Assembly: GCA_946631295.1 (NCBI GenBank) | Contig: CAMOZY010000014.1 | Location: forward strand, 1 to 45,164 | Direction: 5' to 3' | From: an uncultured Lachnospiraceae bacterium | GTDB lineage: Bacteria; Bacillota; Clostridia; Lachnospirales; Lachnospiraceae | DNA: 45,164 nt | Shown: positions 3,439 to 27,035 of the stretch, one piece after another | Layout of the letters: each line of letters begins with the position of its first letter | Position numbering within the stretch: position 1 is the stretch's first letter | Notes under the pieces: model-generated | The model's database searches: none | Told to the model about the DNA's origin: nothing | What the model saw: only the letters and a program-made list of their open reading frames with translations | Program-made: the position numbers and the translations under genes

Positions 3439-3472
3439 AAAACTTGATTAAATATCAGAATTTGATCATCTG

Positions 3473-3865: not shown

Positions 3866-4058
3866 AAATATGCTCTCCTTTTTATCTATGTGTCAGCGCT
3901 GCTGACATTATTTACTGTCTTTGTTTTTCTATATCTGATATATTCCCCGGAGATTTTTTTATCCCAAGATAATCATCTGTTACATTCGATTGTATTGATA
4001 ATCTATAAATGATCATCTGCTGCATAGACCTGTAATCTTATGTCACATCGGTTTCTGA

Positions 4059-4967
4059 TCATTTAGTATATCCGGCCACATGTTCATTAAGAAATGCAGT
4101 CACATATTCTCTGTATTTTACGGGATCGGTAAGTATCGACATGGCATGTTCAGCTCCCGGAATCAGATGAACCTCGCTGTATCCAGAAGTTCTTGCAGCC
4201 ATATCCTGTGAATTCTTAGGAAGGATAAAGCTGTCATCGGCACCGTGGATGAACAGTATCGGAATAGTGTTATCATTCAGTGATTCAACAGGCCTCATTT
4301 CAAGAAGCGAATAATGATATCTTATCTTTCCCGTAAAATTTGCCACATCCACGAAAAATGAGGGAACATGATTATTTGTATAAGCACCCCTGAGGACATT
4401 TTCTATATCAGAAAATCCGCAGTCAGCCACGACAAAATCAATCTCAGGCTTATACTTAAGAACCGTAATCGAGGTAGCTGCACCAAGTGATTCACCGTGA
4501 AGACCAAGCAGTGATATATTGCCGTATCTTGATCTCGTATCCTCAATAAGCGCCTTCAGGTCCTGCCCTTCGCAGATTCCGTAAGTGGTAAATGTGGATG
4601 CATTATCACCGTGACCACGAAGATCATAAATAACGCAGTTAAAACCAAGATCCAGATACATCTTCACATACTTCAGTGTTCCGATATGATTGTCGGTATA
4701 TCCATGTGAAAGGATCATATACTTATCAGTCGGTTCAGGATTTTCGAGATATTCCACATGAAGCTCATAATCTTCATATCCCCTTACGATATAATCCGTC
4801 TTTTTCAGATCATTGTAATAGGAAGTATCATACCGCTCACTCTGCCATGCCCATGCTTCATCAATCGTCTGCCTTCTCCCTGTCATCACATACGATGGAA
4901 GCCAGAACGAAAACAGAACAAATATCACAAGCAGAATACCGACAATGATCAATAATATTTTTATCAT
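4059..4967 (-). CDS. Membrane-anchored alpha/beta hydrolase
   Basis: A 302-residue hydrolase with an N-terminal hydrophobic anchor (IKILLIIVGILLVIFVLFSF) and a single catalytic domain. Visible elements: oxyanion loop SHGYTDN, YDLRGHGDN, nucleophile elbow GESLGA (Ser about 160), acid region HGADDSFI and catalytic His in GAEHAMS. The anchor without a clear cleavage site suggests an extracytoplasmic enzyme tethered to the membrane, probably an esterase or peptidase-like hydrolase of the kind usually called YqkD-like or serine aminopeptidase S33. I prefer ATG 4965-4967; a TTG at 4989-4991 would add eight residues, and neither has a strong binding site. Confidence 0.82.
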   Translation of the reverse strand: MIKILLIIVGILLVIFVLFSFWLPSYVMTGRRQTIDEAWAWQSERYDTSYYNDLKKTDYIVRGYEDYELHVEYLENPEPTDKYMILSHGYTDNHIGTLKYVKMYLDLGFNCVIYDLRGHGDNASTFTTYGICEGQDLKALIEDTRSRYGNISLLGLHGESLGAATSITVLKYKPEIDFVVADCGFSDIENVLRGAYTNNHVPSFFVDVANFTGKIRYHYSLLEMRPVESLNDNTIPILFIHGADDSFILPKNSQDMAARTSGYSEVHLIPGAEHAMSILTDPVKYREYVTAFLNEHVAGYTK

Positions 4968-7937: not shown

Positions 7938-8987
7938 TCATTTAGAATTAAAAATGTCAGTATTAATTATCTGAGGCTGACACTCTACTCTATTAACCAT
8001 TTTAATTCCACCTGTAGGAACATTAATATTTCCAAAATTTATTTCTTCCTGAAGACTATTATGAAAATGATTAGAATTACTCATTGGAAAAATCCATGCT
8101 ATATCATGAATTGCCGCATCTTCTATCAGATAACTGTATTTATAATATTGGTCTTCTAATTGTGTATAGCGATAGTGAGTAAACTCAGGAATAGGATCGT
8201 TAGGACAATTAACCTTATCTCTATGTTGCATCAATCTTTGCTTAAATTTATCAGCCCTGCCAACATATATGTGACCTCTATTTTCATCATATAACATATA
8301 AATTACATTTAGTTTCTCTGCTTCTGATTCCAGTTCAGAAAACCTCTTCCACCCGATACAATTTTCAGGTTCTGAAATCTTATAAAAATCAAGATTATCT
8401 CTACCTAAAAAGTATTCTTCCGCAGCTGCTATCGAGTTTGCACCAAAATAATATGCACTTTGTATTGCCATATCGCAAAACTTATTGTCACTTGGTATTT
8501 TCCATTCGATTTTTGTCAATTCAGCAACTGCATCAATACATTTTTCTTTTCCTGTTGTATTATCAGCTTCACATACACATGTAGTCTTTATAGTAAGTTT
8601 CTCCGGTTCAATGCCAAGATCATTTTTCCAATTTGCGTAGGATGCCCACAATACTATTTCCATCTTCTTCTCCAAATATGGAGAAAATGTCATTAAATAT
8701 TGATCATATGTATTTGTTTCTACATACGGCAAACCATGTCCATTGATATTTATATAATTCGATTTAGGATTATCTTTGATGTCACATAGTGCTTTCCTTA
8801 TATATTTATTAGGAGCACTACTTATGAGTTCTTCATTCACGATAAACTTGTATAATCCCAATCCTGGTTTTATGCACGAATAATCTTTTGTATATTTAGA
8901 AGGAATATTAACCTCCTTATGATCAAAGAAAGTAGTTGCGTTTTGTTTTGTTATTGAAAATACTATTGTATTATTGATTGTGTTCAT
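7938..8987 (-). CDS. GIY-YIG domain-containing protein of unknown function
   Basis: A 349-residue protein with a GIY-YIG-like module at about residues 227-262: VIYMLYDE, then HIYVGRAD.FKQRLMQH, where IYM stands for GIY, YVG for YIG, and Arg and His follow at the usual spacing. The rest is not recognised. The C-terminal 90 residues contain many aromatics and may complete the nuclease module; the N-terminal 220 residues hold four cysteines in a short stretch (CVCEADNTTGKEKCID) that is not an obvious zinc site. The gene is markedly AT-rich with Lys/Asn/Ile-rich codons compared with genes on either side. It lies downstream of a nuclease and a repeat protein of the same composition, suggesting joint acquisition and a role in DNA processing or defence. 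Confidence 0.7.
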   Translation of the reverse strand: MNTINNTIVFSITKQNATTFFDHKEVNIPSKYTKDYSCIKPGLGLYKFIVNEELISSAPNKYIRKALCDIKDNPKSNYININGHGLPYVETNTYDQYLMTFSPYLEKKMEIVLWASYANWKNDLGIEPEKLTIKTTCVCEADNTTGKEKCIDAVAELTKIEWKIPSDNKFCDMAIQSAYYFGANSIAAAEEYFLGRDNLDFYKISEPENCIGWKRFSELESEAEKLNVIYMLYDENRGHIYVGRADKFKQRLMQHRDKVNCPNDPIPEFTHYRYTQLEDQYYKYSYLIEDAAIHDIAWIFPMSNSNHFHNSLQEEINFGNINVPTGGIKMVNRVECQPQIINTDIFNSK

Positions 8988-9026
8988 AATGCCTTCTTCA
9001 CTCCATATTATTATTTTTAAGCGGGA

Positions 9027-9953
9027 TTAAAGAATATTCTCTTCTTTCAAAGCATCACAATGTAAAAACATTTCATTCCTAATATTTGATGGAACTGCTT
9101 TTATATCAAAGCCCTTCCAAAATCGGATATTTTCCAATTTCATACAGAAAGCAAACATATCATCTAATAAAAGCTGATTCTGAGGTGTATCTAATTGCCA
9201 TGCGGGAAACAACACAGATTTCAAAGAAACGCATCCTGCAAACACTCTTCGAAAATCCTTTATATAATCCCATATACATTCAATTCCTGATAAATCAATC
9301 CGCTCCAAAGACATGCAATTCCAAAAGCATTCAGAAACATCTTTACAATCAGAAAAGTCATGACTATCAACAAAACACGATTTTACATTAATATTCTGAA
9401 GGTGAATACAATTCCTGAACATACCTTTTAATCCCGAGCAATAAAAAACAGAAACTTCTGCAGTTTCCAAAGATACACAATTATCAAATGCATAATCAGC
9501 TTTATATATCTGGCAATAGTCCAAATTTGCTTTTTTTAGATTATGGCAATTTAGAAAGCATGAATTTATGCATACTGGCAGATTGGTTTCAACTTCAATT
9601 ATTATTTCTTGTAATAAATTACTTCCTCTAAAAGTTTCTGACAAATCTATCATTTCTTCTTCATAATTTGGTGTTTCATCACAATCAATATTCGTATCTT
9701 TATAATCAAAAACTAAATTCAATCTTCCACCGGTTATTGAAAGAATACTATCTAATGCTCCATTTTCAATTTTTCTTATAGCAGAATTGTTAAATATCAA
9801 TTTAGGGATAGTTCCGTCAAAATCTAATCTACCAGTTTTCATTATTAACTTGGCATCAATCGATTCTATTGAAAGATATCCCTTCTGTGTCGGGTTTGTA
9901 TGAATACCAATAAAGTCAAGTTTACCTTTCTGAAGTTTGATATAGTCCGTCAT
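9027..9953 (-). CDS. Leucine-rich-repeat-like (BspA/DUF285-type) protein
   Basis: A 308-residue protein whose C-terminal two thirds repeats a unit of roughly 25 residues: CFLNCHNLKKANL, AFDNCVSLETAEV, MFRNCIHLQNINV, CFWNCMSLERIDL, VFAGCVSLKSVLF, MFAFCMKLENIRF, MFLHCDALKEENI. The pattern (hydrophobic)-F-x-x-C-x-x-L-x-x-x-x-(hydrophobic) is that of BspA-like or DUF285 leucine-rich repeats. No signal peptide or anchor, so it is probably cytoplasmic, unlike most BspA-type surface proteins. The likeliest start is ATG 9951-9953, with AGGTG five bases upstream; another ATG (9966-9968) overlaps the preceding stop as TAATG. Either way translation is coupled to the PD-(D/E)XK nuclease gene. AT-rich like its neighbours. 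A recognition or scaffold role beside the nuclease is inference. Confidence 0.7.
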   Translation of the reverse strand: MTDYIKLQKGKLDFIGIHTNPTQKGYLSIESIDAKLIMKTGRLDFDGTIPKLIFNNSAIRKIENGALDSILSITGGRLNLVFDYKDTNIDCDETPNYEEEMIDLSETFRGSNLLQEIIIEVETNLPVCINSCFLNCHNLKKANLDYCQIYKADYAFDNCVSLETAEVSVFYCSGLKGMFRNCIHLQNINVKSCFVDSHDFSDCKDVSECFWNCMSLERIDLSGIECIWDYIKDFRRVFAGCVSLKSVLFPAWQLDTPQNQLLLDDMFAFCMKLENIRFWKGFDIKAVPSNIRNEMFLHCDALKEENIL

Positions 9954-9967
9954 ATTGTCACCTGTCA

Positions 9968-11287
9968 TTACACTTCACACTTCTTTCCAAAGATTAATCT
10001 GTTATAATTCATATCTCCTATTACTTTATATTTAATTTTGAGTTCATCTAAATTTTCAATTGAAAGATTTTTATTCTTTTTATATAACTCTTCTATATCC
10101 TCATATTTACACTTTATTATATAGCCATCTACCTTAGGATAAACTGTCCAACCTCTTCCATTATCGGTCGGGGATGGTGTCGGCAACCCATTCTCCTCAC
10201 ATATTTTGCATTTCATATAACTCATGGCACTGGAAGTGTTATCAAAAAATTTATAATCTCCGTTTTTTTCTTTTTCAATTTCTTTTTCATCGCCTTTATC
10301 GTCTATTCTCCTAAATATACCAATCTTAGTCTCTTTATCTTTTACAACAATTTGACCATAAATATGAAATTTGCGTTCACAACCTCTTGGCGAATATTCT
10401 TTTACAATATTCATACCATCAAAGAAATATCCATTTTCAACCAAAGAATCAGGTGATATTATCCCTTTGTTGGAAGGAATATACATTTTACAATCAAAAA
10501 TATTATCCAATACTTTTTTATAGTCATTATATAATTTGTATTCAGTCAGATTTTCATTTTTATTTCTAGATGATAAATAATTATCAACAGCATTATGAAT
10601 TGCAATCAATTCGTTTTCATAATTATTCCATATAATTTCTATATCATTCTTAAAAATCTGAACTCCTATAGTATTAAGATTCTTCCTATATTCCTCAATA
10701 ATTAAAGCTGCTGTTTTATCCTTGCAATCTTTTATATCAATCCTGCTAAGAATCTTGTCATAAAATTCCTGATAAGTAATTCGAACAAATTCTTCACATC
10801 CTGGTTTTTGATTTCGCTGATTTGTCAAAAATACACAGATTGCTTTTCTAGTGTTTCTTTTTTCTTTAGCATAATTATAATAATCTATGGTTTGAGCTCC
10901 ATTTTCATTGTCATGTTCGGAAGCTTTGACCTTATTTTCAATAACTATGATTGCTTTATCGTTTTCACCAATCAGATCAATGAATTTTCTATTATCAGTC
11001 TGTTTTTCAAATTCGAAATCAAAAGAATTTAATGATAAATCATCAATACTAACAGTATTAGTCGTGGTTTTAGAATTATATAATTCAATAAAAAGTCTTA
11101 ACGGAGTATCACCAAGTCCATGAGAAGTTTTAGGAGAAAGAAACCAGCCATAAAAAGCACTATGCCAATGCTCCAAATGTTTAGTTCCAACAATATTAAA
11201 AAAATTATTATCACATTCCTCAATATTTTCCTTAAGCGTCAAAAAATCACGATCATTAATCAGTTGATCATATACTTTACCACTCAT
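9968..11287 (-). CDS. PD-(D/E)XK superfamily nuclease (PDDEXK_4-like)
   Basis: A 439-residue protein whose N-terminal domain matches the PDDEXK_4 nuclease pattern: HWHSAFYGWFLSPKTSHGLG (a helix and loop typical of the family), then FIDLIGENDKAIIVIENKVKA with Asp104, Glu117 and Lys119 forming the D...ExK core, then a Gln-containing segment and CVFLTN. The C-terminal 230 residues are Lys-rich and unrecognised. ATG 11285-11287 has GGAG six bases upstream; an ATG four codons earlier lacks a site. The gene begins 22 bases after addA and is coupled to the repeat-protein gene after it. AT-rich compared with addA. Proteins of this type are common in defence islands and next to restriction systems, but no methylase is nearby. 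Confidence 0.8.
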   Translation of the reverse strand: MSGKVYDQLINDRDFLTLKENIEECDNNFFNIVGTKHLEHWHSAFYGWFLSPKTSHGLGDTPLRLFIELYNSKTTTNTVSIDDLSLNSFDFEFEKQTDNRKFIDLIGENDKAIIVIENKVKASEHDNENGAQTIDYYNYAKEKRNTRKAICVFLTNQRNQKPGCEEFVRITYQEFYDKILSRIDIKDCKDKTAALIIEEYRKNLNTIGVQIFKNDIEIIWNNYENELIAIHNAVDNYLSSRNKNENLTEYKLYNDYKKVLDNIFDCKMYIPSNKGIISPDSLVENGYFFDGMNIVKEYSPRGCERKFHIYGQIVVKDKETKIGIFRRIDDKGDEKEIEKEKNGDYKFFDNTSSAMSYMKCKICEENGLPTPSPTDNGRGWTVYPKVDGYIIKCKYEDIEELYKKNKNLSIENLDELKIKYKVIGDMNYNRLIFGKKCEV

Positions 11288-11309
11288 ATATTGCTCCATA
11301 AGTCTATAA

Positions 11310-14300
11310 TTAAATTTTTGTTAATCGTAGTTCAATGCTTGAATCAACAGTGTTCCTATCCGTAAACGACACTAAGAACACGCTGATCTTCTCCTTCGGA
11401 ATATCCAGTATTCCGCTTACCGCTCTCTTGTATTCAGCAACCTGTGGTGTGTATTTCTGGTTGAGGTACTGAACAAAGCTTTCTTCATCCGGATATTTAC
11501 TGTCATCATCGGACTTGTAGTCAATGATGTGACAGGTTCCGTCTTTCAGTTTGATTACAAGGTCTGCTTCTCCATGCATCCATACAGGTGGCTTTGCATC
11601 ATTATCAGCAGACTCAGAATCATACTCGACAGAGTTATCTTCATTCTGATCAAAATCATTCATGACATCTGTGATCATGTAAGAGAATGGGAGTTCTGTA
11701 TAGATCTTCTCCGCATCTTTGTATTCATCATGACTTACGAACCACTTCTCAAATGCTTTAAGAGCACCGGCAAGAAAATCCTTATATCTGTCAAATTCAC
11801 CCGCAGGAATAAATTCACTGTTTTCATTAAGTGCCTGAATAACGCACATCTTTTTAATCATATCAGATGCAAGTACAGGCTCAGTGGGATTCATTTCTCT
11901 TCTTTCCATCACAAGTTCAAAGCATCTGTGCATTGACAGACCTACGATATTTCCACGTACTCTGTCTGATTCAGTATCCTGTTTTTTTATATCCTTACCG
12001 GCTTTTTTATCTTCAAGTTTGCTTGGAACAACGGATCTGAACAGTTTTACTGAATGTGCCTTTGAAGCAGCTTTGTCTGCTAGTCTCTCTTCTGCTGACT
12101 GAGGTGCTACAGCAGTTGCATTAGTGGAGGACGCCTGCATAACGCCTGTTGCCATCGAAGCAATTGAGGGAAGCTTATCAAGCTCATATCCCTCACTAAA
12201 CAGAGGATTTCCGTCCGAGCATGAATCCATGAAGATAAGAGCCTGCTTTGCTCTTGTTGCAGCTACATATTCAAGTCTGATCAGTTCTTCTATGCTTTCG
12301 GTTTCAGCCTGAGAGGCAAGAGCAGGATCTGCAGTTATGGAACTCCATACAACAGTAGGCAGGCCATATTGATTATCATCTTCTATATCAGGATAAAAAT
12401 ATTTATTCTTTCTGTAATTTCCTGCTTTGAATTCTTTATTTTCATACCTGTTGGTCCAGATGACAATACCGCCCTCAAGGCCTTTTGCCTGATGAAGATT
12501 CATGAATCTGACAACATCCTTTTTTTCTTCAAGCACTATCTCTTTTACAATCTGACTTGAAGCATAATCCTTCAGTTTCCTGAGGATATCTCCTCTGCTG
12601 TCATGATCTGATATCATGATATTCTCAGTCATCTGGTAAAGTTTTCTCTGAAGATCGGATGTCTCATATAGATCTATATCCAGTCCCTTCTTTATAACCA
12701 GATCCATATGCTCTATGAGATATTTAAGACATCCGTATCCGGACATTCTTCGTGTTTCATTTCTTATCACATCCAGAATATTCAGATTATCTTTTGTATC
12801 GGAGGATCCGGATATTGCAAGGGTTTCCAGTGCACCTTCTATGGAACCCTTATCATAAGGATCCGCTGTGAATGCATACATTCTTATAAAAGCATTCAGA
12901 TAATAATTCGTTGTTGCATATACCTTGGCAATCATCGTGAAAGGTATCTGATACTCTTTCATCTTCTGAACATATACATCCATATGGTATGTATTGGCAC
13001 ACAGAACAAGGAAATCTGAATATTTAATCTTCCTGATGGTTCCCTCATCTTCAATATCCTTGTTCCCATGCATACCGGTGATAAGTCTGCATACCGCATC
13101 TGCATCTTCTTCAATGGTTGTACATTTGACATCGGGATTCTGATATTTATAAATGCCCTGTACCTGATTAACGGAAATAGGAGCCTGAATACCTGCTTTG
13201 GATGGAGGCAGAGTCATTGACACATAGGGAACTTTTCCTGTAATGGATTTACCGGCAAATTTGATATTTACCCAGTCAATGATCTTACGATCAGACCTGA
13301 AATTGTAATTAAGTCTGCAAAAATAGGCATTCTTGACATCAGGATCTTCTATCCAGTCTCTCGTACTGAAATATACTTCCGGCTCTGCACCTCTGAATCT
13401 GTAGATGGACTGTTTTGGATCTCCAACCACGAACAGAGCACCGTCTCTTATGCTTCCCTTAACACCATCATTTTCAACCAGCATTCTTATGAATCCATCC
13501 TGAATATGATCGGTGTCCTGAAATTCATCCACATAAATGCAGTCGAACTTGGAAGCGAAGAAATCCTTCACTTCCGGTGATGATTCCAGAAGTTCATAGG
13601 TCTTCTGGAGAAGCTTGTCATTCGTTATTATTCCTGCAGGAAAATCTTTCCTGTAATCATCTGCGGCCTTCTGAGATATCTCAACATATTTATTGAAGAT
13701 CTGATTCTTATAAGCATCCGCCCACTTAACAATATCTGAGTATTTGTTTTTGATATAAGTAAACAGCGAACCATCCTGTGACTCCAATGCAGAAGCTAGA
13801 GCTGTAAGTTTTTCAGTAACAGCTTTTCCTTTAAGTCCGGTTGCTCTCAGAGCATCTTCATAATCGTTTTTTATTGGAGAAGGATTAATGAAGTATTTCT
13901 TCTGTGAATTACCCTTGATAGCAATATTCAGAATATCAAGTCTGTTTCCCGATATAAATGCGCTCTTAAGCGACTGACCGAATTTATTGAGATACCCATC
14001 CGGAACAGTTGTAATATCATATGAATGATACGGAACAAGAGCAAGTACAGAATTCAGTTCCTTTTTGTAATCAGCAAGAAACGTGTCAACATCTGCATAT
14101 GCTTTTGAAGCATTAGCGGTCGACACATTTGTCTCGACGTTCATATCTGCAGAGAGCGAATACAGGGTTTTAGCCAGACTGCTTAGTCTGTTATAAATCT
14201 TCCATTTTTCATTACAGCCTTCAAGAAGAGCGTTCCAGTCTGAGGAATGAACATTCTTTTCCATCCACTTCACAAAGAAGGCATTAAACTGTCCATTTTC

Positions 14301-18435: not shown

Positions 18436-18464
18436 ATTTTATACAAAATTGCCGGTTATGTCGA
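18436..18464 (-). promoter_or_regulatory. Predicted promoter of the LUD-addB-addA unit
   Basis: On the minus strand TCGACA (18464-18459), a 17-base spacer and TAAAAT (18441-18436) match the sigma-A consensus at 5 of 6 positions each. The -35 box lies in the loop of the hairpin that ends the preceding operon, so terminator and promoter overlap. Confidence 0.42.
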
Positions 18465-18493
18465 TAATAACAGGCATAACCGGCAGTTTTTTT
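18451..18493. terminator. Intrinsic terminator after the AAA/ClpP operon
   Basis: GCCGGTTATG (18451-18460) and CATAACCGGC (18475-18484) form a perfect 10-bp stem with a 14-base loop. It lies about 60 bases after the stop of the CbbX/SpoVK-type ATPase; on the minus strand it is followed by AATTTTG, and on the plus strand by seven T. Confidence 0.75.
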
Positions 18494-18545
18494 ACAGGAT
18501 CAATTGTCTATGCTTCAAACAGCATTTATACTCTCCAAATACAGA

Positions 18546-20324
18546 TCATACTGCATGAACTAAGGCGTGTCTGGAAGATGTGGCACAGAATCCGTACGAT
18601 ACGGTATTCTCAGAATGATTCTGACTATCCATTGACTTTATCGCTGTCTTAAGATCGGATATGATAACGGAATCTATGGGAACAGATTTGGGTGTTCTGC
18701 TGTCGTTTTTCTCTTTATCATGCCTGAGTGCAACAGCCTTGAAAACAGCATCTGTAAGCCTTCTTGCTTCTCTTGCATTACCAAAGTGTTCTTTTTCTCT
18801 GCCCTTTAGTTCCATAAGGTATTTTCCTGCCTCTGCGCACACTCCCTTAGCAGGCTTATATCCCTTCTTTGCAAGCATATATCTGAAGATGTCAGCAAGT
18901 TCCTTCTCACTGTAATCTTCAAATCTGATTGTTGCGGATATTCTCGAGGGAAGCCCGGCATCAAGGGTCAGAAATCTTTTCGACTCTCCGGGATACATTG
19001 CGAAGATAACGGTAACATCTCTGCAGATTTCCATATATCTCACGAATTCCTTCACAGCCTCATCTATATATCCGCCGGCGGATTTGTTCAGGAAAAATCC
19101 TGCTTCATCCACAAAAAGAACACCTCCTGACGCATCCCGGAACAGTTTGGCAACCTTTGGTGCCGTATGTCCGACAAACTCTCCTATTATATCCTTTCTT
19201 GAAGCTGATACAAATGTACCATTGGTAATCCCCTCCCCGGCAAGGATATCCGAAAGAAGCTTTGCACTTACTGTCTTTCCGCCACCCGGATTACCTTCAA
19301 AGATCAGATGAGTACATTCAAGTCCGGACAGTGGATTTCTCCTCATCTCATTTCTTACAGCAATATATTCCTTCACTGCAGATTTAAGATTCTTAAGTCC
19401 TGTCATCCCGTTAAGAACATCCATCGCAACACATGCGGACACGTTAATACAGTCCTCAAAATGCTCCGGCTTAAAGCACTTATCAGTATCATTCATCCTC
19501 AGTCTGGCCTTAGTAAGAGCATCACTTATCCTTTCCTCGCTGATGAACCTTCCGCACTTTCTGATCACACCTCCTATAACAGCCTCTTTCAGTTCCTTAG
19601 TAGCAAATCCGACTTTACCGAATTCGATCAGTTCATCCGCAACCTTCCTGTAGTATGCGGGATTCACGTCAGGGAGCCTTATGATATCAAAGCCTCTTTC
19701 AAACATAAGCCTTCTGATTTCAGGAAGATCCTCCATTTCCTCGGTGATACCGACGAATACATTCTGAGCGGATACTGAAGCTATCGCGGCACACTGGTCT
19801 CCGAGATTACCCGTCTCAAGTCCGGTGAAAAGAATCCCTCCGCAGTTAAATACTTTCGTTGCAACACCTGTGATAGTTCCGGTCTTGATGATATAAGGAT
19901 TACCGGCCACTCTCTCATCTGCCATATCCTTTCCGAGCTCAATTTCGAAAATGTCACTGTAAGTACTCATATCATTACCATCTTCATCACAGTATTCGAT
20001 CTCGAACCCTTCATCCCCATCTTCATATGCGGCGCCGCTGAATCCGTCAGCAAGTATCATCGCTGACTTTCTGATACGGTTAAGATCGTTGCTCACAAGG
20101 AGCACCTTCATATACTTAACATCAATGTCATAATATTTGGTGCTGTTCATCTTCTGATAACGTCTCTTATAACCTTTTAGAGGCTCAGAATAATCACTGA
20201 ACTCCGACTCATAGTTGGTATTCTTCATTATTATCCTCTCAGCAGAGTAGTTTTCAATCGGCCTTTTTTCAAGTTTCAGATAGGGCACCTTTCTTTTGTA
20301 GAAATCAATATACATATCGTACAT
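18546..20324 (-). CDS. Two-module AAA+ ATPase: degenerate N-terminal module, active CbbX/SpoVK-type C-terminal module
   Basis: A 592-residue AAA+ protein, last gene of the six-gene operon. The C-terminal module (about 300-540) is of CbbX/SpoVK type: HLIFEGNPGGGKT (Walker A 344-351), IIGEFVGHTA, GGVLFVDEAGFFL (Walker B, Asp406-Glu407), EAVKEFVRYME, VIFAMYP and GLPSRISATIRFEDYSEKELADI with the arginine finger Arg461. The preceding region (about 70-275) has an AAA-like outline, KVLLVSND...RIRKSAMILA then GGILFTG and NVFVGITEE, but no P-loop or Walker B acids, so it is probably a dead AAA module. The first 65 residues are basic and aromatic. ATG 20322-20324 sits six bases from GGAGGG; the ATG two codons earlier abuts it. 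Being next to clpP suggests an unfoldase for that peptidase, or an adaptor-remodelling role. Confidence 0.83.
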   Translation of the reverse strand: MYDMYIDFYKRKVPYLKLEKRPIENYSAERIIMKNTNYESEFSDYSEPLKGYKRRYQKMNSTKYYDIDVKYMKVLLVSNDLNRIRKSAMILADGFSGAAYEDGDEGFEIEYCDEDGNDMSTYSDIFEIELGKDMADERVAGNPYIIKTGTITGVATKVFNCGGILFTGLETGNLGDQCAAIASVSAQNVFVGITEEMEDLPEIRRLMFERGFDIIRLPDVNPAYYRKVADELIEFGKVGFATKELKEAVIGGVIRKCGRFISEERISDALTKARLRMNDTDKCFKPEHFEDCINVSACVAMDVLNGMTGLKNLKSAVKEYIAVRNEMRRNPLSGLECTHLIFEGNPGGGKTVSAKLLSDILAGEGITNGTFVSASRKDIIGEFVGHTAPKVAKLFRDASGGVLFVDEAGFFLNKSAGGYIDEAVKEFVRYMEICRDVTVIFAMYPGESKRFLTLDAGLPSRISATIRFEDYSEKELADIFRYMLAKKGYKPAKGVCAEAGKYLMELKGREKEHFGNAREARRLTDAVFKAVALRHDKEKNDSRTPKSVPIDSVIISDLKTAIKSMDSQNHSENTVSYGFCATSSRHALVHAV

Positions 20325-20342
20325 ATACATCCCTCCTCATAA

Positions 20343-20918
20343 TCACCCAAGAACCGCATCAACTATCCCGAACTTAACAGCTTCATCAGCCTTCATCCAG
20401 TAATCCCTGTCAGTACATTTCCTGATACTTTCAATACCCTTTCCGGTATTTTCTGAAAGGATCATATTAAGCACTTCTCTTGTATCCCTGATATGATCCG
20501 CTGCAATGAGCATATCGCTGCTCTGCCCCTCCATTCCGCCTGAAGGCTGATGGATCATGACCTCGGCATGCGGGAGAACGAATCTGTGTCCCTTCGTTCC
20601 TCCGGACAAAAGTACCGCACCCATCGAAGCTGCTCTTCCGATACAGAATGTATTAACCATGCATCCCTGCTTTTCCGCATATTTCATGGTGTCATATATT
20701 GCAAGGCCTGCAGATACGCTTCCACCCGGAGAATTGATATACAGATTGATATCCCTGACCGCACAGGCTCTCTCTATAAGATAAAGAATCTGAGCGGTAA
20801 CAGATGCTGCCATCTCATCACACACCTCTCCCACCACATGGATGATTCTGTTCTCAAGATTTGAAGAGAAAATATCATTTCCCTTTCCTTCGTCATAAAT
20901 AACCGGATTAATAACCAT
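20343..20918 (-). CDS. ClpP-type serine peptidase (accessory copy)
   Basis: A 191-residue ClpP homologue with the complete catalytic triad: Ser98 in GRAASMGA, His123 in VMIHQPSGG, Asp172 in TDRDYWM. YINSPGGSVSAG and the C-terminal DEAVKFGIVD are also standard. ClpP forms a tetradecameric chamber that needs an AAA+ unfoldase. No clpX is adjacent; instead the gene is flanked by the MoxR-type and CbbX/SpoVK-type ATPases of this operon, so it is probably a dedicated extra copy rather than the housekeeping one. The start is ATG 20916-20918 with GGGAGG seven bases upstream, 14 bases after the MoxR gene; the longer open frame would run into that gene. The short N-terminus lacks the usual propeptide, and the axial loop region (VINPVIYDEGKGND) differs from common ClpP. 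Confidence 0.9.
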   Translation of the reverse strand: MVINPVIYDEGKGNDIFSSNLENRIIHVVGEVCDEMAASVTAQILYLIERACAVRDINLYINSPGGSVSAGLAIYDTMKYAEKQGCMVNTFCIGRAASMGAVLLSGGTKGHRFVLPHAEVMIHQPSGGMEGQSSDMLIAADHIRDTREVLNMILSENTGKGIESIRKCTDRDYWMKADEAVKFGIVDAVLG

Positions 20919-20931
20919 AACTTTTCCTCCC

Positions 20932-22116
20932 TTATCCTGCAAGACCGTACATCCTTCTTGCCGTCTCAAGATATTTATCATTTTTAACCCTGCGCACCAG
21001 ATCACAGAGCTGATCATTGGCAGTAATATGCAGGAAAAACTTCTCACATACAGAATTATTCATCCTGGTTTTTTCAAAGAATCCAAAGACATTGCTGATC
21101 TTTACAGACATGGTCTTGGGCTTTTCATATGCAGCATTCCTGATCAGTTCTCTTTCAATAACCTCCAGTGCTCCGTCGACAAACTGAAGATCACTTTCAT
21201 CAAAGATCTTTATCAGGTCCTCCCCGTATTTCCCACTCACTATCTGATGCATCTGTTCATCATCAAACGAATTGTGATTAAGCCAGTAATAGTTCCAGAA
21301 ATCTGCCGCAATCTTATCAGACTTGATAAACTGCTGAACCGTATGCGGAGTAAGAGTAAATCCGGCCCTGTCATATGCATCTATAGTACGCGACAGGTTC
21401 TCCCATCCTCTCATCGTCACAGTCTCCGCACCATTCTTAACATTTGTAACTTTGTAGATATTGTGGGGATACAGCTTCAGATAATCGACAACAGATCTGT
21501 TAAAATTCTGCTTTTCAGCATATTGGAAGAAGTCTGTCTCTTCAGGAACAATCTCGATCTTCCTGACTCTGTCCATGATCGCAGGTGAAAAGTTCCTGGC
21601 TGAAGAATTGTATTCCACGGGATTACCACACAGGACTATCACCCAATCATCCGGAAGCTTATACAATCCGATATTCCTGGTCTGCAGGAAAGCCAGCATA
21701 ACCGGCATGATAGTATCCGATGCGCAGTTGAACTCATCAAGGAGCAGAATTCCCTTATCGTAGCCCTTTTCCTTTTCGCGGATAACAGCAGCGATCACCT
21801 CTGACATGGAATATTGTGTATACTTTTCACCGCTGCCAAGATCACTTATAACAGGAAGACCGATTATCGAATTGCGTGTATGATGGGTTACCGAAAAGCT
21901 TACAAATCCGATACCAAGCTCATCCGCAACCTGCTTTGTAATCTGAGTCTTTCCGATTCCGGGTGCGCCAAAGAGGTAGTAGGGAAGCCTGCTCACAGGA
22001 TCATAAATATACCTTCCCTTATCATCTGTAATGAAATATGCCTCTATACCGGCTTTCATCTCATCCTTAGCCTCATTGATGCCGTATGTAGTTTTCTGAC
22101 CTGCCTTTGTTAACAT
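20932..22116 (-). CDS. MoxR-type AAA+ ATPase
   Basis: A 394-residue AAA+ ATPase of the MoxR/AAA_5 kind. Walker A is GAPGIGKT (50-57), followed by FVSFSVTHHTRNSIIGLP, Walker B GILLLDEFN (Asp127, Glu128), sensor 1 in VLCGNPVEYN (Asn165) and an arginine-rich segment MDRVRKIEIVPEE. The C-terminal 170 residues form a helical lid and an extra region ending in RRVKNDKYLETARRMYG. MoxR ATPases normally work with VWA-domain partners as chaperones that insert cofactors or remodel complexes (RavA-ViaA is the known example), and a VWA gene lies two genes upstream here. ATG 22114-22116 has AAAGGAG five bases upstream. Confidence 0.9.
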   Translation of the reverse strand: MLTKAGQKTTYGINEAKDEMKAGIEAYFITDDKGRYIYDPVSRLPYYLFGAPGIGKTQITKQVADELGIGFVSFSVTHHTRNSIIGLPVISDLGSGEKYTQYSMSEVIAAVIREKEKGYDKGILLLDEFNCASDTIMPVMLAFLQTRNIGLYKLPDDWVIVLCGNPVEYNSSARNFSPAIMDRVRKIEIVPEETDFFQYAEKQNFNRSVVDYLKLYPHNIYKVTNVKNGAETVTMRGWENLSRTIDAYDRAGFTLTPHTVQQFIKSDKIAADFWNYYWLNHNSFDDEQMHQIVSGKYGEDLIKIFDESDLQFVDGALEVIERELIRNAAYEKPKTMSVKISNVFGFFEKTRMNNSVCEKFFLHITANDQLCDLVRRVKNDKYLETARRMYGLAG

Positions 22117-22133
22117 ATATTCTCCTTTCTACA

Positions 22134-22523
22134 TCAGGTAAAACCGTTCTCAGCCAGAATCATAAGAGGTATCAGCTCGTACAGATCTGTATCTCTGAAG
22201 CTTTTGATACAGTATGAGGAATCACTGCCCGTGATCAGCCCCTTTGTGATCAGACTTCTGAATATGTCCCGGGGATCTCTGCCATCGCACTTAAGTCCTG
22301 ACAGGATACATACCACATCATCCAGAATCCGGCTCTTCCTTACTCTGTCTGCATTTTTATATTCCTTTATAGACAAGAGCAGACTGACGGCAGAAGTAAA
22401 ATCCCTCTCCCTTACATGATCATCAAGAACTCCTTCAAGCCACTTGCTGTCCCTTTTGTCAGAAAGATTGATCATCTCCTTCTCAGGTCTGATCAGATCT
22501 TCCTCTTTAAAAATAGTATCCAC
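22134..22523 (-). CDS. Small conserved-looking hypothetical protein of the AAA/ClpP operon
   Basis: A 129-residue mostly helical protein that I do not recognise. It begins with an acidic stretch (VDTIFKEEDLIRPEKE) and continues with helix-forming segments such as FTSAVSLLLSIKEYKNADRVRKSRILDDVVCIL and YELIPLMILAENG; no metal site or transmembrane segment. I chose a GTG at 22521-22523 because AGGAGG lies nine bases upstream; a TTG eight codons earlier precedes that site and would lack one. The start overlaps the end of the VWA gene by 17 bases and the gene stops 17 bases before the MoxR start, so it belongs to the operon. A small adaptor between the VWA and MoxR proteins is a guess. Confidence 0.68.
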   Translation of the reverse strand: MDTIFKEEDLIRPEKEMINLSDKRDSKWLEGVLDDHVRERDFTSAVSLLLSIKEYKNADRVRKSRILDDVVCILSGLKCDGRDPRDIFRSLITKGLITGSDSSYCIKSFRDTDLYELIPLMILAENGFT

Positions 22524-23931
22524 TGTCAGGTACCTCCTCTTTATCAAGTATCATTTTTCTCACCCAGGGCGGAGTGAAGTTTTCAGCCCATTTAGCGTAG
22601 TTTCTGCCAGGAAACACATAATACACGGGGTATCCGGGATCCTCGGAGGGATAATCTCCCATACCGTCGGAAAAATAGATAAGAAAGTCTATCCTCTCTC
22701 CGTCCTCTTCATATTTCCTTATCCGCTCAAAGACCGGATTAAAATCCGTACCTCCAAATCCCGCAAAACAGTGAGGCGTATTCTTCTCTTCAGCCATTTC
22801 CCATATATCCGTATATTCCTTTTCAAATGTGACATCCGCATCACATTCAAGATAGTGAAGCCTGTCCATCGAACTGCCTTCTTCTATCTCACTGAATATC
22901 TCAATAGTTTCAGTCCTGAATTCCTTAAGACAGTTCATACATGATCCGCTGGTATCAACTGCGATCACTACAGATGACAGCTTCCTGTTGAACTTATGTT
23001 CAAGTGGTTCTATAAGAGGAACATCACCGTACATTTCAAGACCATATTCATATATCGCAGGATCAATCTCATCTTCTTCATCAGCTGTTTCCGTTATACG
23101 TGACGCTTCATCAATAAGACTCCTGTATGACAGAACACCCTTTTCATCAGGCGTGACTTCTTCAGATGTATTTCCTGCCGATGCAGATCCCCATGTTTTC
23201 ATACCGGCATTTCTCATGGCTCGAAGCAGAGCATTTTCAACTTCTCTCGGAAGTCCGTTCGACATATTTATACTTCCAAGTCCCGTGATCAATTTTGTAA
23301 TATCAACCCAGGTACAGCCTGTCTTGTTACCCCCTTCCTGTTCACGGTCATCACTTTGTATCTGAAATTCCAAAAGCGGAGGCGCCCATGTTGCATGATC
23401 ATCCAGAATTTTTACATGTGTTTTTTTCAGAAATGAGATAAAACCCCTTATCCTTTCCTGAAGCTTTATATCTTTCTGGGCATTGTAATAAAGCGAAAAA
23501 CCAGTCTGACCTTCAAACAGCGGATTTACATTTGAAATTGCCGTACCTATTCCGGATTCATTAAACATTCTTGTAACCTGCAGGTCCATCACATCCCATG
23601 CAAGCTGCTTCTGGTCATAATCATTTCCTCTGGAAAAATGACCGAGCAGTCCGTGAAAAATGATATGCAGGATCTGGTACTTACCGGGGATATCGTTTTT
23701 CTCCCGGAGAATGCTCTCCGGATAGTAAAAAATCTTCCTTCCGTCAGTACATATTCCGGGTAAGTTTTCCTCCACTTCAGTCGGGACAAGGAAATTAACA
23801 GCATCGATCAAAATCGGATATTCTCTTTTGATCTGTCTAAGAATAGCCCTCACCCTGTCACCCGCCTGTTTTGCCGTGTCATCCTTTCTGTGGGAAGGAG
23901 TCAGTTCCTTCCTGTATTTCCTTGTACTCAT
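22507..23931 (-). CDS. Metallopeptidase-like/VWA protein (DUF2201-type), MoxR partner
   Basis: A 474-residue protein with two recognisable parts. The N-terminal part resembles the predicted metallopeptidase region that precedes VWA-like domains (DUF2201 family): HIIFHGLLGHFSRG with His89, His93 and His98, then WDVMDLQV. Families of this kind have HExxH; here Glu is replaced by Ile90, so metal may bind but catalysis is doubtful. The C-terminal part is a VWA domain with intact MIDAS: DTSGS (326-330), GGTDF (Thr395, Asp396) and FSDGMGD (Asp422). VWA proteins with MIDAS partner MoxR ATPases, one of which is encoded two genes downstream. ATG 23929-23931 overlaps the preceding stop (ATGA) and has GGAGGGG six bases upstream. 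Cytoplasmic. Confidence 0.85.
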   Translation of the reverse strand: MSTRKYRKELTPSHRKDDTAKQAGDRVRAILRQIKREYPILIDAVNFLVPTEVEENLPGICTDGRKIFYYPESILREKNDIPGKYQILHIIFHGLLGHFSRGNDYDQKQLAWDVMDLQVTRMFNESGIGTAISNVNPLFEGQTGFSLYYNAQKDIKLQERIRGFISFLKKTHVKILDDHATWAPPLLEFQIQSDDREQEGGNKTGCTWVDITKLITGLGSINMSNGLPREVENALLRAMRNAGMKTWGSASAGNTSEEVTPDEKGVLSYRSLIDEASRITETADEEDEIDPAIYEYGLEMYGDVPLIEPLEHKFNRKLSSVVIAVDTSGSCMNCLKEFRTETIEIFSEIEEGSSMDRLHYLECDADVTFEKEYTDIWEMAEEKNTPHCFAGFGGTDFNPVFERIRKYEEDGERIDFLIYFSDGMGDYPSEDPGYPVYYVFPGRNYAKWAENFTPPWVRKMILDKEEVPDSGYYF

Positions 23932-25472
23932 TTGCTGCCCCTCCGAACCTTTCCGGCATCAGCCCGGCTTCTTTTATTTCCGTCTTCACATACATCAGCC
24001 GGTGGCCATTCACCATGCTTTTTGAGGATCAGCGCAGGTATAAGCGATCCTTTATTCTTTTGTCTGGCCAGAGATATAAGGTAATCCGCATCCTTCCTTC
24101 TGATAAAATCTTTCTTAAGAGCCATCAGTACTATTTCTTCACCCAGATCCTCTATGAGATAATCCAGGTCGTATCTTGACTGTCCGGTCTGCCCACGCGA
24201 ATTACCGTAAACAGCACTTGTGGAATTCCTGATGATCATTTCAAGGAACAATCCGGTAAACAAACCTTTATTGTTTAAAATACCGGAACAGCTCATAAAC
24301 CCTGCCCCACCCGGAAAGGGCAGCTGATTTTCCTTTTCAAACTCAAAGGAATCCATATCAAAATACAGTCTCCTTCCTGATACAGCCTTCCATATCCTGC
24401 CAAGATCAAGGGTTTCCTTATCTATAGTCTCTCCGATTCCAATGAATCCTAGCTGATCTGAAATGCACCTCGCTGCCAGTTCATGCCAGAGATTTTCTTC
24501 CATTGGCTTCTCCGAAACCTTCACATATACGTCGTCGTAATAGCATTCGCCAAATGCCTTATACATTTTCCTGAAGGTTCTCAGATCTTCCTTTCTTCCA
24601 TTCAGATTCAGATGGAGAAAATAATGTATCAAAAGATCAAAAAAGGTTTCCTCGTTCATCATCCTTGTAAACAGTTCTGCATCTGCTTCAAGAATGTAAC
24701 GAAGAAGTTCGAAGGCTTGCACGCGATAATCATTCTGACAGGAATCGAATACGGTGTTATGCATCCTGTGATTTCCGTCCTGATTTGCACCCGGAGAATA
24801 ATTTCCCTTGTTAAGATTCAGCCAGCCATAGTACTCTTTCTCACCATACCTTTCCAGTAACCTGTGACATAACGGAAGTGGTGCGCTGTCTTTCCAGCGG
24901 CCATACGCGCCGAGGATGAACCTGTCGAGATGAGAATACTTTTCCTCCTTAACAAGTCTGAATTCATCACCGCAAACTGTTGTCCACTTTCCTGCGGAAA
25001 GAAACCTTACGGGAAGCATTTGGGTAAAGTCACTGAACTCATTTATGGATAAGAGTCTGTCAGCTGCTTTGTATTCTTTTGCATAGACCGCAAAGATAAG
25101 CGGTGGCATCCGTACGATCGTCTTTACCGGAATAGTGATAGGATCATCATCGCAAATGTATTCTTCCGATACATCACCGTCACTCTCCACATACCAGATA
25201 TTTCCATCGGAGCACTCCTTCACAAGACGTTCCGGATTCCTTACAAGCTCTACAGCATTCTTAAATCCCGGAGGTTTATCCGAATTAAGCAGTTCTTCAA
25301 CCTTCCTTCTGACATCGCCGTTAAGTCTGTCAAAAGAAGCCTTCTGCACTCCTCCGTCCGGAGCAATATACAACTCTCCGTCCGGTATCAAGGTTACTTT
25401 ATAGGGATCATCGACAAGGTCTTCCTGAATCGTCTCCCTCCTTATTTCTGCCACTTTCCTGGTTATTGACAT
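23928..25472 (-). CDS. Unrecognised 514-residue protein, first gene of the WYL-controlled operon
   Basis: I do not recognise this protein. The N-terminal 130 residues look like a small mixed domain with short strands (KVTLIPDGELYIAPDGG, NIWYVESDGDVSEEYI). After PPLIFAVYAKEYKAADRLLS the protein is largely helical, with aromatic and acidic stretches and a second ankyrin-like pattern near the end (KDADYLISLARQKNKGSLIPALILKKHG). This suggests degenerate helical repeats rather than an enzyme; no catalytic motif or membrane segment is visible. The last 20 residues are strongly basic. The start is ATG 25470-25472 with AAAGGAG seven bases upstream; an upstream in-frame ATG lies inside the operator palindrome. 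Position suggests a sensor, scaffold or substrate receptor for the VWA/MoxR/ClpP proteins. Confidence 0.75.
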   Translation of the reverse strand: MSITRKVAEIRRETIQEDLVDDPYKVTLIPDGELYIAPDGGVQKASFDRLNGDVRRKVEELLNSDKPPGFKNAVELVRNPERLVKECSDGNIWYVESDGDVSEEYICDDDPITIPVKTIVRMPPLIFAVYAKEYKAADRLLSINEFSDFTQMLPVRFLSAGKWTTVCGDEFRLVKEEKYSHLDRFILGAYGRWKDSAPLPLCHRLLERYGEKEYYGWLNLNKGNYSPGANQDGNHRMHNTVFDSCQNDYRVQAFELLRYILEADAELFTRMMNEETFFDLLIHYFLHLNLNGRKEDLRTFRKMYKAFGECYYDDVYVKVSEKPMEENLWHELAARCISDQLGFIGIGETIDKETLDLGRIWKAVSGRRLYFDMDSFEFEKENQLPFPGGAGFMSCSGILNNKGLFTGLFLEMIIRNSTSAVYGNSRGQTGQSRYDLDYLIEDLGEEIVLMALKKDFIRRKDADYLISLARQKNKGSLIPALILKKHGEWPPADVCEDGNKRSRADAGKVRRGSK

Positions 25473-25524
25473 ATCTGTTCTCCTTTCTGTCACCTTTTTC
25501 ATGTCCCGATGATACAAGTACTTA

Positions 25525-25542
25525 ATGTGCAATATTGCACAT
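25525..25542. promoter_or_regulatory. Operator palindrome 1 (operon side)
   Basis: ATGTGCAATATTGCACAT is an 18-bp perfect palindrome. It is identical to the one at 25607-25624, 82 bp away centre to centre (about eight helical turns). It lies 52 bases upstream of the ATG of the 514-residue gene, just downstream of a possible minus-strand -10 box (TAAACT, 25550-25545). Likely binding site of the divergent WYL regulator. Confidence 0.75.
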
Positions 25543-25571
25543 ATAGTTTATCTGCTCATTCGGGATATAAA

Positions 25572-25600
25572 TTGCCTATCAGGCAGCTATATGCTAAACT
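25572..25600 (+). promoter_or_regulatory. Possible promoter of the WYL regulator gene
   Basis: TTGCCT (25572-25577), a 17-base spacer and TAAACT (25595-25600) match the sigma-A boxes at four of six positions each. The predicted transcription start falls at the edge of the second palindrome, which would allow autorepression. A TGCCT-ATC-AGGCA inverted repeat (25573-25585) overlaps the -35 box. Confidence 0.4.
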
Positions 25601-25604
25601 CAGG

Positions 25605-25626
25605 TTATGTGCAATATTGCACATAA
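25605..25626. promoter_or_regulatory. Operator palindrome 2 (regulator side)
   Basis: The same 18-bp core as at 25525-25542, here extended by TT on the left and AA on the right to a 22-bp perfect palindrome. It lies 50 bases before the WYL ATG and about 7 bases after the predicted -10 box. Two copies at the two ends of a divergent promoter region suggest cooperative binding or looping. Confidence 0.75.
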
Positions 25627-25675
25627 AGAATCAGAGACATCAAAACTTTGAAAGTCACTTTGAAAGGCATATAAA

Positions 25676-26911
25676 ATGGCAGATTCACCGGAGAATATAA
25701 AAAACAGAAAGAGCGAAAGCAGAAATAATGTTCTTTACCTGATCCTTACACTTAAAAATCACAGCGACAGAAATAACGCGCTGAGCATTTCGGAAATAGC
25801 TGAACTGATCAATAAAGATTATGTAGAGCAATGTGGAGGAAACATTAATTACCATACGGTAAAAAGACTGCTCGACAGCCTGGAAAACAACTGTCCAGGA
25901 TTATTCAGAAGCAGTGATATCACGCCCTACTCCACACCAAAGGAAATACAGGACAACAATCATTTCGGTTTTTACTTAAGATGTGTAACGGATGCAAAGA
26001 AGGCCGGGAACCAAAAGACAAACAATATTCAAAAATACTACTACGAGTCCATTCTTCTCGAGAGTGAACTGATGACTCTTTATGATGCCATCGAGACATA
26101 CAACTATTTTGCGGTTAACGACATCAGGAACATCTCCATAAAACTGTCTTCATTACGTCCCCTGTCCCAAAACAGACTGGCATATTTTCCGTCAAGAGCT
26201 GATGAGATATTGAAGGAAGACACAAATGTACTTGATTCCATCTCATACCTCGGAGAAATAATCTCGCACAAAAACCTTGCAAGCATCGACTATGGAAATT
26301 ATGTCTACAATCCCAAAAAATCATGTATCGAACTTGTCCAGAGAAAGGACTATCCGAAGATAATGCGCCCGCTTAAACTCATATGGAGCAATGGATTTTA
26401 CTACTGCATCATGGGAAGTTCCGAGTATGATAATACGATCAATTTAAGAGTAGACAGAATGCTGTACATTGAAGAGATAGAGGCAAAGCCGTCAAATCTT
26501 AAGAAATATTCCGGCTTTGGAGGAAAGAAGGGAAATACCGACATCGAATCCAAATCAGCATACAGGACGCGCAATCCTGTAATGTATCCCGGAAGAGAGG
26601 TTCACTTTGAACTGCTCGTTCGCACATCCAGGGTCAATACGATGGTTGATGTCTTCGGAATAAATATCCGGACAGAACTGCTTTCCGACCGGGAATTAAA
26701 AAAATACGGTATAAAAGATGCTTCATCCGAATGGCTGAAAATGCGCATCACATCTTCAATGGATGGAATGATACTCTTTGCAAAGGAATACATGGATGAT
26801 GTGATCATAGTATCGCCCTCTGAAGCAGTCTCACAGATGAATGCAGCGCTGATGAGTGCTCTGAATCTATATTCAGTGACAGGCAGTGGCTTATCCTCAA
26901 ATGGAAAATAG
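25676..26911 (+). CDS. WYL-domain transcriptional regulator
   Basis: A 411-residue DNA-binding regulator. The N-terminus carries a winged-helix-like segment (RNNVLYLILTLKNHSDRNN, ALSISEIAELINKDY, NYHTVKRLLDSL) typical of WYL proteins; a WYL-like domain spans about residues 195-275 (LASIDYGNYVYNPKK, IMRPLKLIWSNGFYYCIMG, RVDRMLYIEEIEA). The C-terminal region HFELLVRTSR...EYMDDVIIVSPSEAVSQM matches the WCX-like extension. WYL regulators often control phage-defence and DNA-damage loci and respond to nucleic acid or nucleotide ligands (BrxR and CapW are examples). It is divergent from the six-gene operon and shares with it a region with two identical palindromes, so it very probably controls that operon and itself. 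ATG 25676 has AAAGG eight bases upstream. Confidence 0.88.
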   Translation: MADSPENIKNRKSESRNNVLYLILTLKNHSDRNNALSISEIAELINKDYVEQCGGNINYHTVKRLLDSLENNCPGLFRSSDITPYSTPKEIQDNNHFGFYLRCVTDAKKAGNQKTNNIQKYYYESILLESELMTLYDAIETYNYFAVNDIRNISIKLSSLRPLSQNRLAYFPSRADEILKEDTNVLDSISYLGEIISHKNLASIDYGNYVYNPKKSCIELVQRKDYPKIMRPLKLIWSNGFYYCIMGSSEYDNTINLRVDRMLYIEEIEAKPSNLKKYSGFGGKKGNTDIESKSAYRTRNPVMYPGREVHFELLVRTSRVNTMVDVFGINIRTELLSDRELKKYGIKDASSEWLKMRITSSMDGMILFAKEYMDDVIIVSPSEAVSQMNAALMSALNLYSVTGSGLSSNGK

Positions 26912-27035
26912 TATACCGTTTATCCTTTCCGGATACCTATACCGGACGCATACTATCCGTATTTTCCACGCCCCGCAGATATGATAAAATGGTTATACTT
27001 ACAGGCAGAATTCTCCCTTTACGGAGGTTATTTAC

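Follow-up and report, generated by a model that had tools for sequence, protein, structure and literature searches.

To our knowledge, the ATPases that serve as partners of the peptidase ClpP in bacteria are those of the Clp/Hsp100 class. Here we analyse an operon carried by a 45,164-nucleotide contig of an uncultured Lachnospiraceae bacterium (GenBank assembly GCA_946631295.1, contig CAMOZY010000014.1, here G000:C14), the whole of which is termed the window, the assembly having 2.54 Mb and being 91% complete. In the operon the gene of a complete ClpP is followed by that of an AAA+ ATPase of the SpoVK/CbbX type and is preceded by those of a MoxR-like ATPase and a VWA protein, together with two further proteins, U514 and S129, and a divergent WYL-domain regulator. 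What is new here is that the SpoVK-like ATPase ends with a hydrophobic-Gly-Phe tail which, judged from the sequence, is of the ClpP-docking tripeptide type. We slightly favour the reading that this accessory and presumably WYL-controlled operon builds a dedicated ATP-dependent protease, in which the tailed SpoVK-like unfoldase would work on its private ClpP with the MoxR-like ATPase, the VWA protein, U514 and S129 forming an additional arm, for use in conflict or acute stress.

The nearest described systems that we found are the FtsH-type MoxR-vWA ternary conflict systems (Kaur et al. 2020, eLife, PMC7159879). As far as the main text of that paper describes them, they have in common with our operon the MoxR-vWA core, a second and different AAA+ ATPase and a conflict-type logic. 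By contrast, their third component is a tandem FtsH-type AAA protein while that of our operon is of the SpoVK/CbbX type, and our operon encodes a ClpP, a name with no occurrence in that main text, and a VWA protein of the DUF2201 type. The effectors of the ternary systems (radical SAM, Ubl conjugation, caspase and beta-propeller vWA) had no Pfam or NCBIfam match in the operon, NEFF1 not being among those searched for. With the classical machines ClpXP, ClpAP and ClpCP the operon shares a ClpP having intact triad motifs and an AAA+ partner having a hydrophobic-Gly-Phe tripeptide, the difference being that the partner here is of the CbbX/SpoVK type and bears the motif on a C-terminal tail, whereas theirs is on an internal loop. 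By sequence and fold the ATPase domain is most like CbbX, SpoVK and EccA, proteins among which the CbbX examined and nearly all those of short SpoVK size are without the tail. The MoxR-VWA chaperones RavA-ViaA and NorQ-NorD have the same pairing, but in our operon no client complex is recognised and a private ClpP and a second AAA+ ATPase are present; among the listed matches of the VWA protein there is no ViaA-named model, DUF2201 being matched. In another known defence operon a SpoVK-family AAA+ gene stands beside VWA genes, as here, to which our operon adds ClpP; no McrB or McrC match was obtained among the operon proteins in the Pfam and NCBIfam searches. The operon belongs neither to the FtsH-type ternary systems nor to the classical Clp systems, yet it appears to work like both, and in open-access titles and abstract openings, among the matches listed, no report of SpoVK or CbbX with ClpP as a system was found.

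The evidence that carries our reading begins with the tail. In the parts of the literature drawn on here (PMC8745299, PMC12521514, PMC12383707, PMC11090510 and PMC7159879), the consensus for docking on ClpP is given as (L/I/V)-G-(F/L), the ClpC change G672D/F673D abolishes ClpP binding, ClpC needing its AGF for ClpP, and the same ClpC paper states that AAA+ proteins dock on peptidases via loops or C-terminal tails. ClpX and ClpC use a tripeptide of the same type for docking on ClpP, and docking is predicted for the window ATPase as well; the Tyr that comes first in its YGF lies outside the published L/I/V set, the commonest form among the relatives being IGF. In an alignment of 18 proteins (21-46% identity to the first row) that were chosen after the motif had been noticed, the Gly and the Phe are invariant and the rest of the tail is variable in length and sequence. 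The pattern [ILVMYF]GF within the last 25 residues is present in 48 of the 170 SpoVK-like proteins that end in a stop (34 IGF, 7 LGF, 4 YGF, 2 MGF and 1 FGF), versus 17 of 1272 other open reading frames (ORFs) of at least 250 residues, where the 48 include a half gene of the congeneric genome G325 and a decayed remnant of G135 and many rows were retrieved by a profile of tailed proteins, so that these are not population frequencies. Among the first-fetched loci, mostly from the genus, 22 of the 26 distinct SpoVK-like proteins with intact ends carry the motif, and among the SpoVK-like proteins shorter than 420 residues it is carried by 4 of 75, two of them being the G325 and G135 fragments. It is present in none of seven controls (a Phyllobacterium CbbX, a Streptomyces protein beside eccD and five plasmid or phage homologues), in all three proteins from faecal contigs deposited as phage and in 4 of 70 IMG/VR proteins with a stop. 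Of 120 family genomes sampled, at least 12 have tailed members, as do three genomes from other families. The tail comes after the AAA lid domain, and the structure model has low confidence there (predicted local distance difference test, pLDDT, below 50). A YGL or YGI near the C-terminus of the MoxR-like protein, in the window and in the congener, was set aside as uninformative, since some such motif occurs in 4 of 14 MoxR C-termini.

Moreover, SpoVK-like and ClpP genes adjoin not only in the window but also in the congener and, with tailed ATPases, in three further species (twice on G300:C83, on G299:C6 and on G321:C64); they are about 5 kb apart on G000:C40 and G325:C5, and on a viral contig (L292) a ClpP ORF begins 512 bp after an ATPase with the end RIGF. 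A ClpP gene within 1 kb on the same strand accompanies 6 of 48 tailed versus 2 of 122 untailed proteins (Fisher p=0.007), a comparison of rows that are not independent and of which many were retrieved with the profile of tailed proteins; that is, six of the eight SpoVK-like ATPases with ClpP within 1 kb are tailed. The 6-kb distance was rejected for the association test because most untailed rows are short-flanked, and the 1-kb comparison was used. Where at least 5 kb is available on both sides of a tailed protein (24 cases), ClpP lies within 1 kb in three and within 6 kb in two. In a tree of 39 ClpPs the nine SpoVK-linked ones fall outside a weakly supported branch of 28 others and occupy four places, namely window with G325 and G300 (94/69), G299 with G321 (99/96), C40 with G325:C5 on a long branch (100/100), and L292 alone; the ClpPs of other species, G184 and G236, are near the linked ones, and the deep forks are mostly weak. 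A single origin of the linkage is recovered in 6% of the bootstrap trees, and repeated origin is not claimed, since the starred branches force one change only.

Some of these loci deserve a description of their own. On G300:C83 (L073) the two SpoVK-ClpP pairs lie about 8 kb apart, at 1959-4470 and 10539-13165, with ClpPs 64-66% identical to that of the window. The second ClpP-SpoVK locus of the window's own genome (L058, G000:C40, 4582-14517) holds a gene that is helix-turn-helix-like by eye, a tailed SpoVK-like ATPase, a metallo-beta-lactamase-fold protein with an RMMBL domain, an HEC-07-like coiled-coil protein, a third ClpP and a TraG/VirD4-like ATPase. L095 (G317) and L096 (G316) encode SpoVK-like proteins that are about 1,300 residues long, have three AAA matches and end in VIGVDSV.

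The private character of the ClpP is consistent with the content of the assembly, which has three ClpP genes: that of the window, a canonical-looking one on C8 to which it is 56% identical and, on C40, a divergent one that is 38% identical to that of the window. A ClpP that was the only one of its genome had been named in the first-pass annotation as speaking against a dedicated module, and the genome does not have that arrangement. The same annotation had made its proposal depend on the co-occurrence of the genes elsewhere, and in a congener (locus L035) the same seven genes are present in the same order with 54.6-87.9% protein identity, which takes the cluster beyond chance. The neighbours on the WYL side are also kept there, G325:C17 matching alike, and the contig end cuts the SpoVK-like gene, whose second half lies on a different contig of G325. 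A scan with the VWA protein over a collection of genomes of 84,980 species, for close relatives only, found this single locus. Among 299 family genomes, in a list that does not show G325, U514 was found only in the window's own genome, as was the N-terminus of the SpoVK-like protein; with an N-terminal profile of the latter, 391 genomes of the class gave the own genome and one marginal partial match. The viral contigs gave 31 pattern matches to U514, with no relative among them. Many of the genomes compared are incomplete.

The cluster is accessory. In the related genome G321 its two flanking genes, LUD and sensor kinase, adjoin, about 0.3 kb apart, and the stretch of about 8.5 kb is therefore an accessory block; the sensor kinase gene, which adjoins the block, is also in this empty-site genome, and the site there is without the stretch beyond the LUD gene as well (an AddAB-like pair along with PDDEXK_4, GIY-YIG and further genes). 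Beside the kinase orthologue of G318 (62% identity) lies a tailed SpoVK-like gene, and the insertion place may therefore be a hot spot; the G318 locus also holds a fragment that matches, by eye, the end of a WYL protein. The G+C content is 43% in the block versus 44% in the right flank. Between the two carriers all genes are under purifying selection, with ratios of nonsynonymous to synonymous change (dN/dS) below 0.2 that are rough at a dS of 0.83-2.35: U514, which changes fastest, 0.189, S129 0.174, the VWA protein 0.147, ClpP 0.082, the SpoVK-like ATPase 0.078 (first 294 codons) and the MoxR-like protein 0.041. Such a pattern would be expected if the engine were conserved while the recognition part diversified.

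The regulatory region is consistent with control of the operon by its divergent neighbour. Between the WYL gene and U514 a 16-base palindrome, TGTGCAATATTGCACA, occurs twice, both copies being perfect and 82 bp apart; with one mismatch allowed, it was found nowhere else in the assembly. Two of 31 genus genomes, G000 and G325, have the pair, with two sites each; in G325 the sites are 71 bp apart and one has a mismatch, the difference in spacing being 11 bp, close to one turn of the helix. A private operator pair would be expected to look like this, and we infer that the WYL protein binds to it. WYL regulators respond to small ligands.

The layout of the locus is as the first-pass annotation had read it, with six tightly packed genes on the minus strand (U514, VWA, S129, MoxR-like, ClpP and SpoVK/CbbX-like, from 25472 to 18546) and a divergent WYL gene. 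Each start in the operon is preceded by a stretch like a ribosome-binding site. Of the junctions it had given, the overlaps stand, an ATGA-type one of 4 bases (U514/VWA) and one of 17 bases (VWA/S129), while the gaps measure 17, 13 and 12 bases in place of 14-18. The intrinsic terminator that it had placed at the operon end can be read in the sequence as a hairpin, which is not listed by the terminator scanner, whose loops have 3-8 bases. The features are collected in Table 1.

Table 1. Features of the operon and its surroundings, in window coordinates
Feature	Coordinates	Strand	Remarks
SpoVK/CbbX-like AAA+ ATPase, 594 aa	18546..20330	-	AAA match at about residues 306-545
Motifs of the SpoVK/CbbX-like ATPase			Walker A GNPGGGKT, Walker B VLFVDE; YGF at residues 579-581
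Codons of the YGF tripeptide (predicted ClpP-docking tail)	18588..18596	-	
Accessory ClpP, 191 aa	20343..20918	-	catalytic motifs intact
MoxR-like AAA+ ATPase, 394 aa	20932..22116	-	
S129, small protein	22134..22523	-	GTG start
VWA protein, DUF2201 VWA-like domain	22507..23931	-	MIDAS motifs intact; N-terminal HIIFH replaces HExxH
U514	23928..25472	-	ATG start; alternative longer TTG start at 25532
Operator-like palindrome, copy 1, TGTGCAATATTGCACA	25526..25541	not applicable	
Operator-like palindrome, copy 2, TGTGCAATATTGCACA	25608..25623	not applicable	82 bp from copy 1
WYL-domain regulator, divergent	25676..26911	+	
Terminator-like hairpin	18450..18485	-	11-bp stem, 14-base loop, then ATTTTG
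Accessory block, approximate extent	18476..27020		missing from the same site in G321 (L166)

With regard to the families of the proteins, the ATPase of the last gene matches the SpoVK-like NCBIfam model TIGR02881 at E=1e-43 (under the equivalog cut-off), CbbX at E=5e-38 and FtsH only at E=5e-4; none of the Clp ATPase models is matched at E<=0.1, by which it lies outside the Hsp100/Clp class; its domain is nearest by sequence to CbbX (3zuh, 3syk) and EccA1 (9lur) and by fold to CbbX. The ClpP matches PF00574 at E=1e-63, its motifs ASMGA (Ser), IHQP (His) and TDRD (Asp) are intact, and in alignment with solved ClpP structures the Ser-His-Asp triad is in place. The first-pass annotation is thus borne out on the CbbX/SpoVK type of the one and on the completeness of the other, as it is on the identity of the WYL protein, which matches the PADLOC WYL model at E=2e-8, though the Pfam WYL match is weak (E=0.013, under the cut-off). 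Its other labels fared less well. The "two-module AAA+" ATPase is not established: hhalign profile comparison found no AAA domain in the first 300 residues, nor did it give support when these were compared with the active AAA module and with the N-termini of the paralogues, that part of the model has pLDDT below 50, and in Foldseek the whole model aligns to Cdc48 over two modules with a low TM-score (template modelling score), its N-terminal half being unreliable. By eye there is a likeness of the N-terminus to an AAA sensor-1/lid stretch, which is a lead only. The "metallopeptidase-like" VWA protein is a weak claim too: the protein matches DUF2201 at E=2e-9 with no DUF2201_N match at E<=1, and at its HExxH site, which reads HIIFH, 3 of 45 VWA relatives have HE, 37 have another residue (the window type included) and 5 lack the motif. 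The MoxR-like protein has PF00004 and AAA_5 matches over the cut-off, an AAA_3 match under it, no NCBIfam MoxR match and a weak partial ClpA cross-match (E=3e-5), so that its label rests on AAA_5 and on the pairing with the VWA gene; it is shorter than the usual MoxR partners of DUF2201 VWA proteins in the family. Walker motifs A and B are intact in both ATPases, as are the motifs of the metal ion-dependent adhesion site (MIDAS) in the VWA protein. S129 and U514 have no significant family match, and the AlphaFold model of U514, from two sequences, is unusable (mean pLDDT 35.7).

The VWA protein has matches in 80 of 150 family genomes, with a MoxR gene adjoining in 28 of the 29 loci examined outside the own genome, and the own genome has a second MoxR-VWA pair on C5. 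The operon resembles this common pair joined to a ClpP-SpoVK core. In G322 (L039) a VWA gene is followed by a tailed SpoVK gene. In G319 (L074, C156, 4371-11474) a WYL gene, a MoxR-like gene, a VWA gene (DUF2201_N and DUF2201) and a tailed SpoVK gene stand together, and the 20 kb read there contain no ClpP, which makes this a sister arrangement without ClpP. It is also noted that the L074 row has a protein with a weak match to DNA polymerase III alpha. In G135, of another genus, decayed VWA, SpoVK-like and MoxR remnants adjoin (L104/L169, 2769-3869) near a metallophosphoesterase gene, and such a gene is also downstream of the VWA-SpoVK pair in G322.

As for the surroundings, the neighbouring gene at 9968-11287 matches the candidate-defence nuclease PDC-S26 of PADLOC (PDDEXK_4, E=8e-27), and on C40 the HEC-07-like protein (E=1e-16) lies between the tailed SpoVK gene and the third ClpP gene. 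The GIY-YIG, unknown and PDDEXK_4 genes at 7938-11287 have a low G+C content (33%), with the AddAB-like pair alongside. On this circumstantial context a defence role is favoured.

Based on these data we propose the following model. The ring of the SpoVK/CbbX-class ATPase would dock on its own ClpP barrel through the predicted C-terminal hydrophobic-Gly-Phe tail, analogues being ClpX, ClpA and ClpC, which dock by internal loops, and the proteasomal ATPases, which dock by C-terminal tails. It would then unfold the substrates and pass them to ClpP. The MoxR-like ATPase, the MIDAS-bearing VWA protein, U514 and S129 would make up a remodelling and substrate-recognition arm, and the WYL protein would bind the two palindromes and, on sensing a signal, switch on the divergent operon, the likeliest use being in inter-genomic conflict (phage or plasmid defence) or in an acute stress response. 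The closed module of recognition, unfolding and degradation that the first-pass annotation had envisaged is in keeping with the tail of ClpP-docking type, the ClpP that is one of three, the accessory block with its empty site and the private palindromes, its docking step being predicted. For the phage-defence side of the inducible stress or phage-defence protease that it had inferred, the defence-type neighbours are circumstantial evidence, and no catalogued defence system matches the operon. In its wider form, our proposal is that CbbX/SpoVK-branch unfoldases docking by a C-terminal IGF-type tail make up a further class of ClpP motors, some with a private ClpP and others borrowing the housekeeping one, here coupled to MoxR-VWA as an inducible conflict protease; we put it forward tentatively, as having just short of an even chance.

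Several points weigh against our proposal. In 19 of the 24 well-flanked cases there is no ClpP up to 6 kb from the tailed protein, and the partner would therefore be the housekeeping ClpP, or the tail has another role. The two untailed ClpP-adjacent ATPases both come from one genome, G039 (L255/L256), and end ISLIG, the recurrence of the ClpP linkage may be descent from a single origin, four of the 26 intact-ended proteins of the first loci have no tail, and many rows were retrieved by the profile of tailed proteins. The YGF of the window stands 13 residues short of the end, versus within the last 12 residues in 43 of 48. The full cluster was found in two carriers only, the N-terminal 300 residues of the SpoVK-like protein and U514 give pLDDT below 50 nearly throughout, and PADLOC matches no catalogued defence system in the operon, weak AAA cross-matches and the WYL model being what it returns. 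On G039 it is further observed that each of the two ATPase genes immediately precedes a ClpP gene truncated at the end of its contig, ISLIG being perhaps a variant docking end. If the tail were a structural or substrate-interaction tail of the SpoVK branch and its adjacency to ClpP coincidental in accessory islands, then the many tailed ATPases with no ClpP nearby, the two untailed ones beside ClpP and a linkage of possibly one origin would be understood; but the motif fits the published docking consensus, sits after the lid, is invariant amid a variable tail and is borne by most of the SpoVK-like ATPases with ClpP within 1 kb, and we regard this explanation as unlikely.

The remaining alternatives concern what the operon is for. 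That MoxR-VWA is a stand-alone chaperone pair in the style of RavA-ViaA or NorQD, with ClpP and the SpoVK-like ATPase as co-transcribed quality-control partners in the same maturation pathway and no role in conflict, would agree with the commonness of MoxR-VWA(DUF2201) pairs in the family, with the pair on C5 and with a G+C content equal to that of the right flank. It would not agree with a block that has no recognisable client enzyme gene, whose presence is accessory with an empty site and whose U514 was not found in 298 other family genomes, and it seems quite unlikely. A regulated protease against a stress such as that of acid, oxygen or the envelope, which would be induced by a WYL ligand and have no anti-phage or anti-plasmid role, is somewhat unlikely: the ligand response of WYL regulators speaks for it, as does the sensor kinase gene adjoining the block, though this gene is also in the empty-site genome, and the patchy presence, the nearby nuclease and candidate-defence genes and U514 as the fastest-changing part speak against it. 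Chance clustering of unrelated genes is disfavoured as highly improbable; the finding of two carriers would allow it, but the genes overlap, their order and purifying selection are kept in the congener, and VWA-SpoVK (G322) and the VWA-SpoVK-MoxR remnant (G135) recur in two further genomes.

Finally, if the dedicated protease that we propose is true, the Clp protease family would be enlarged by a partner from the classical AAA proteins with docking through a C-terminal tail, and a group of so far uncharacterised SpoVK-like proteins in the Lachnospiraceae would gain a function. A MoxR-VWA system would have a concrete output, the targeted destruction of proteins, and bacteria would possess a further kind of ClpP motor, probably for conflict or defence.

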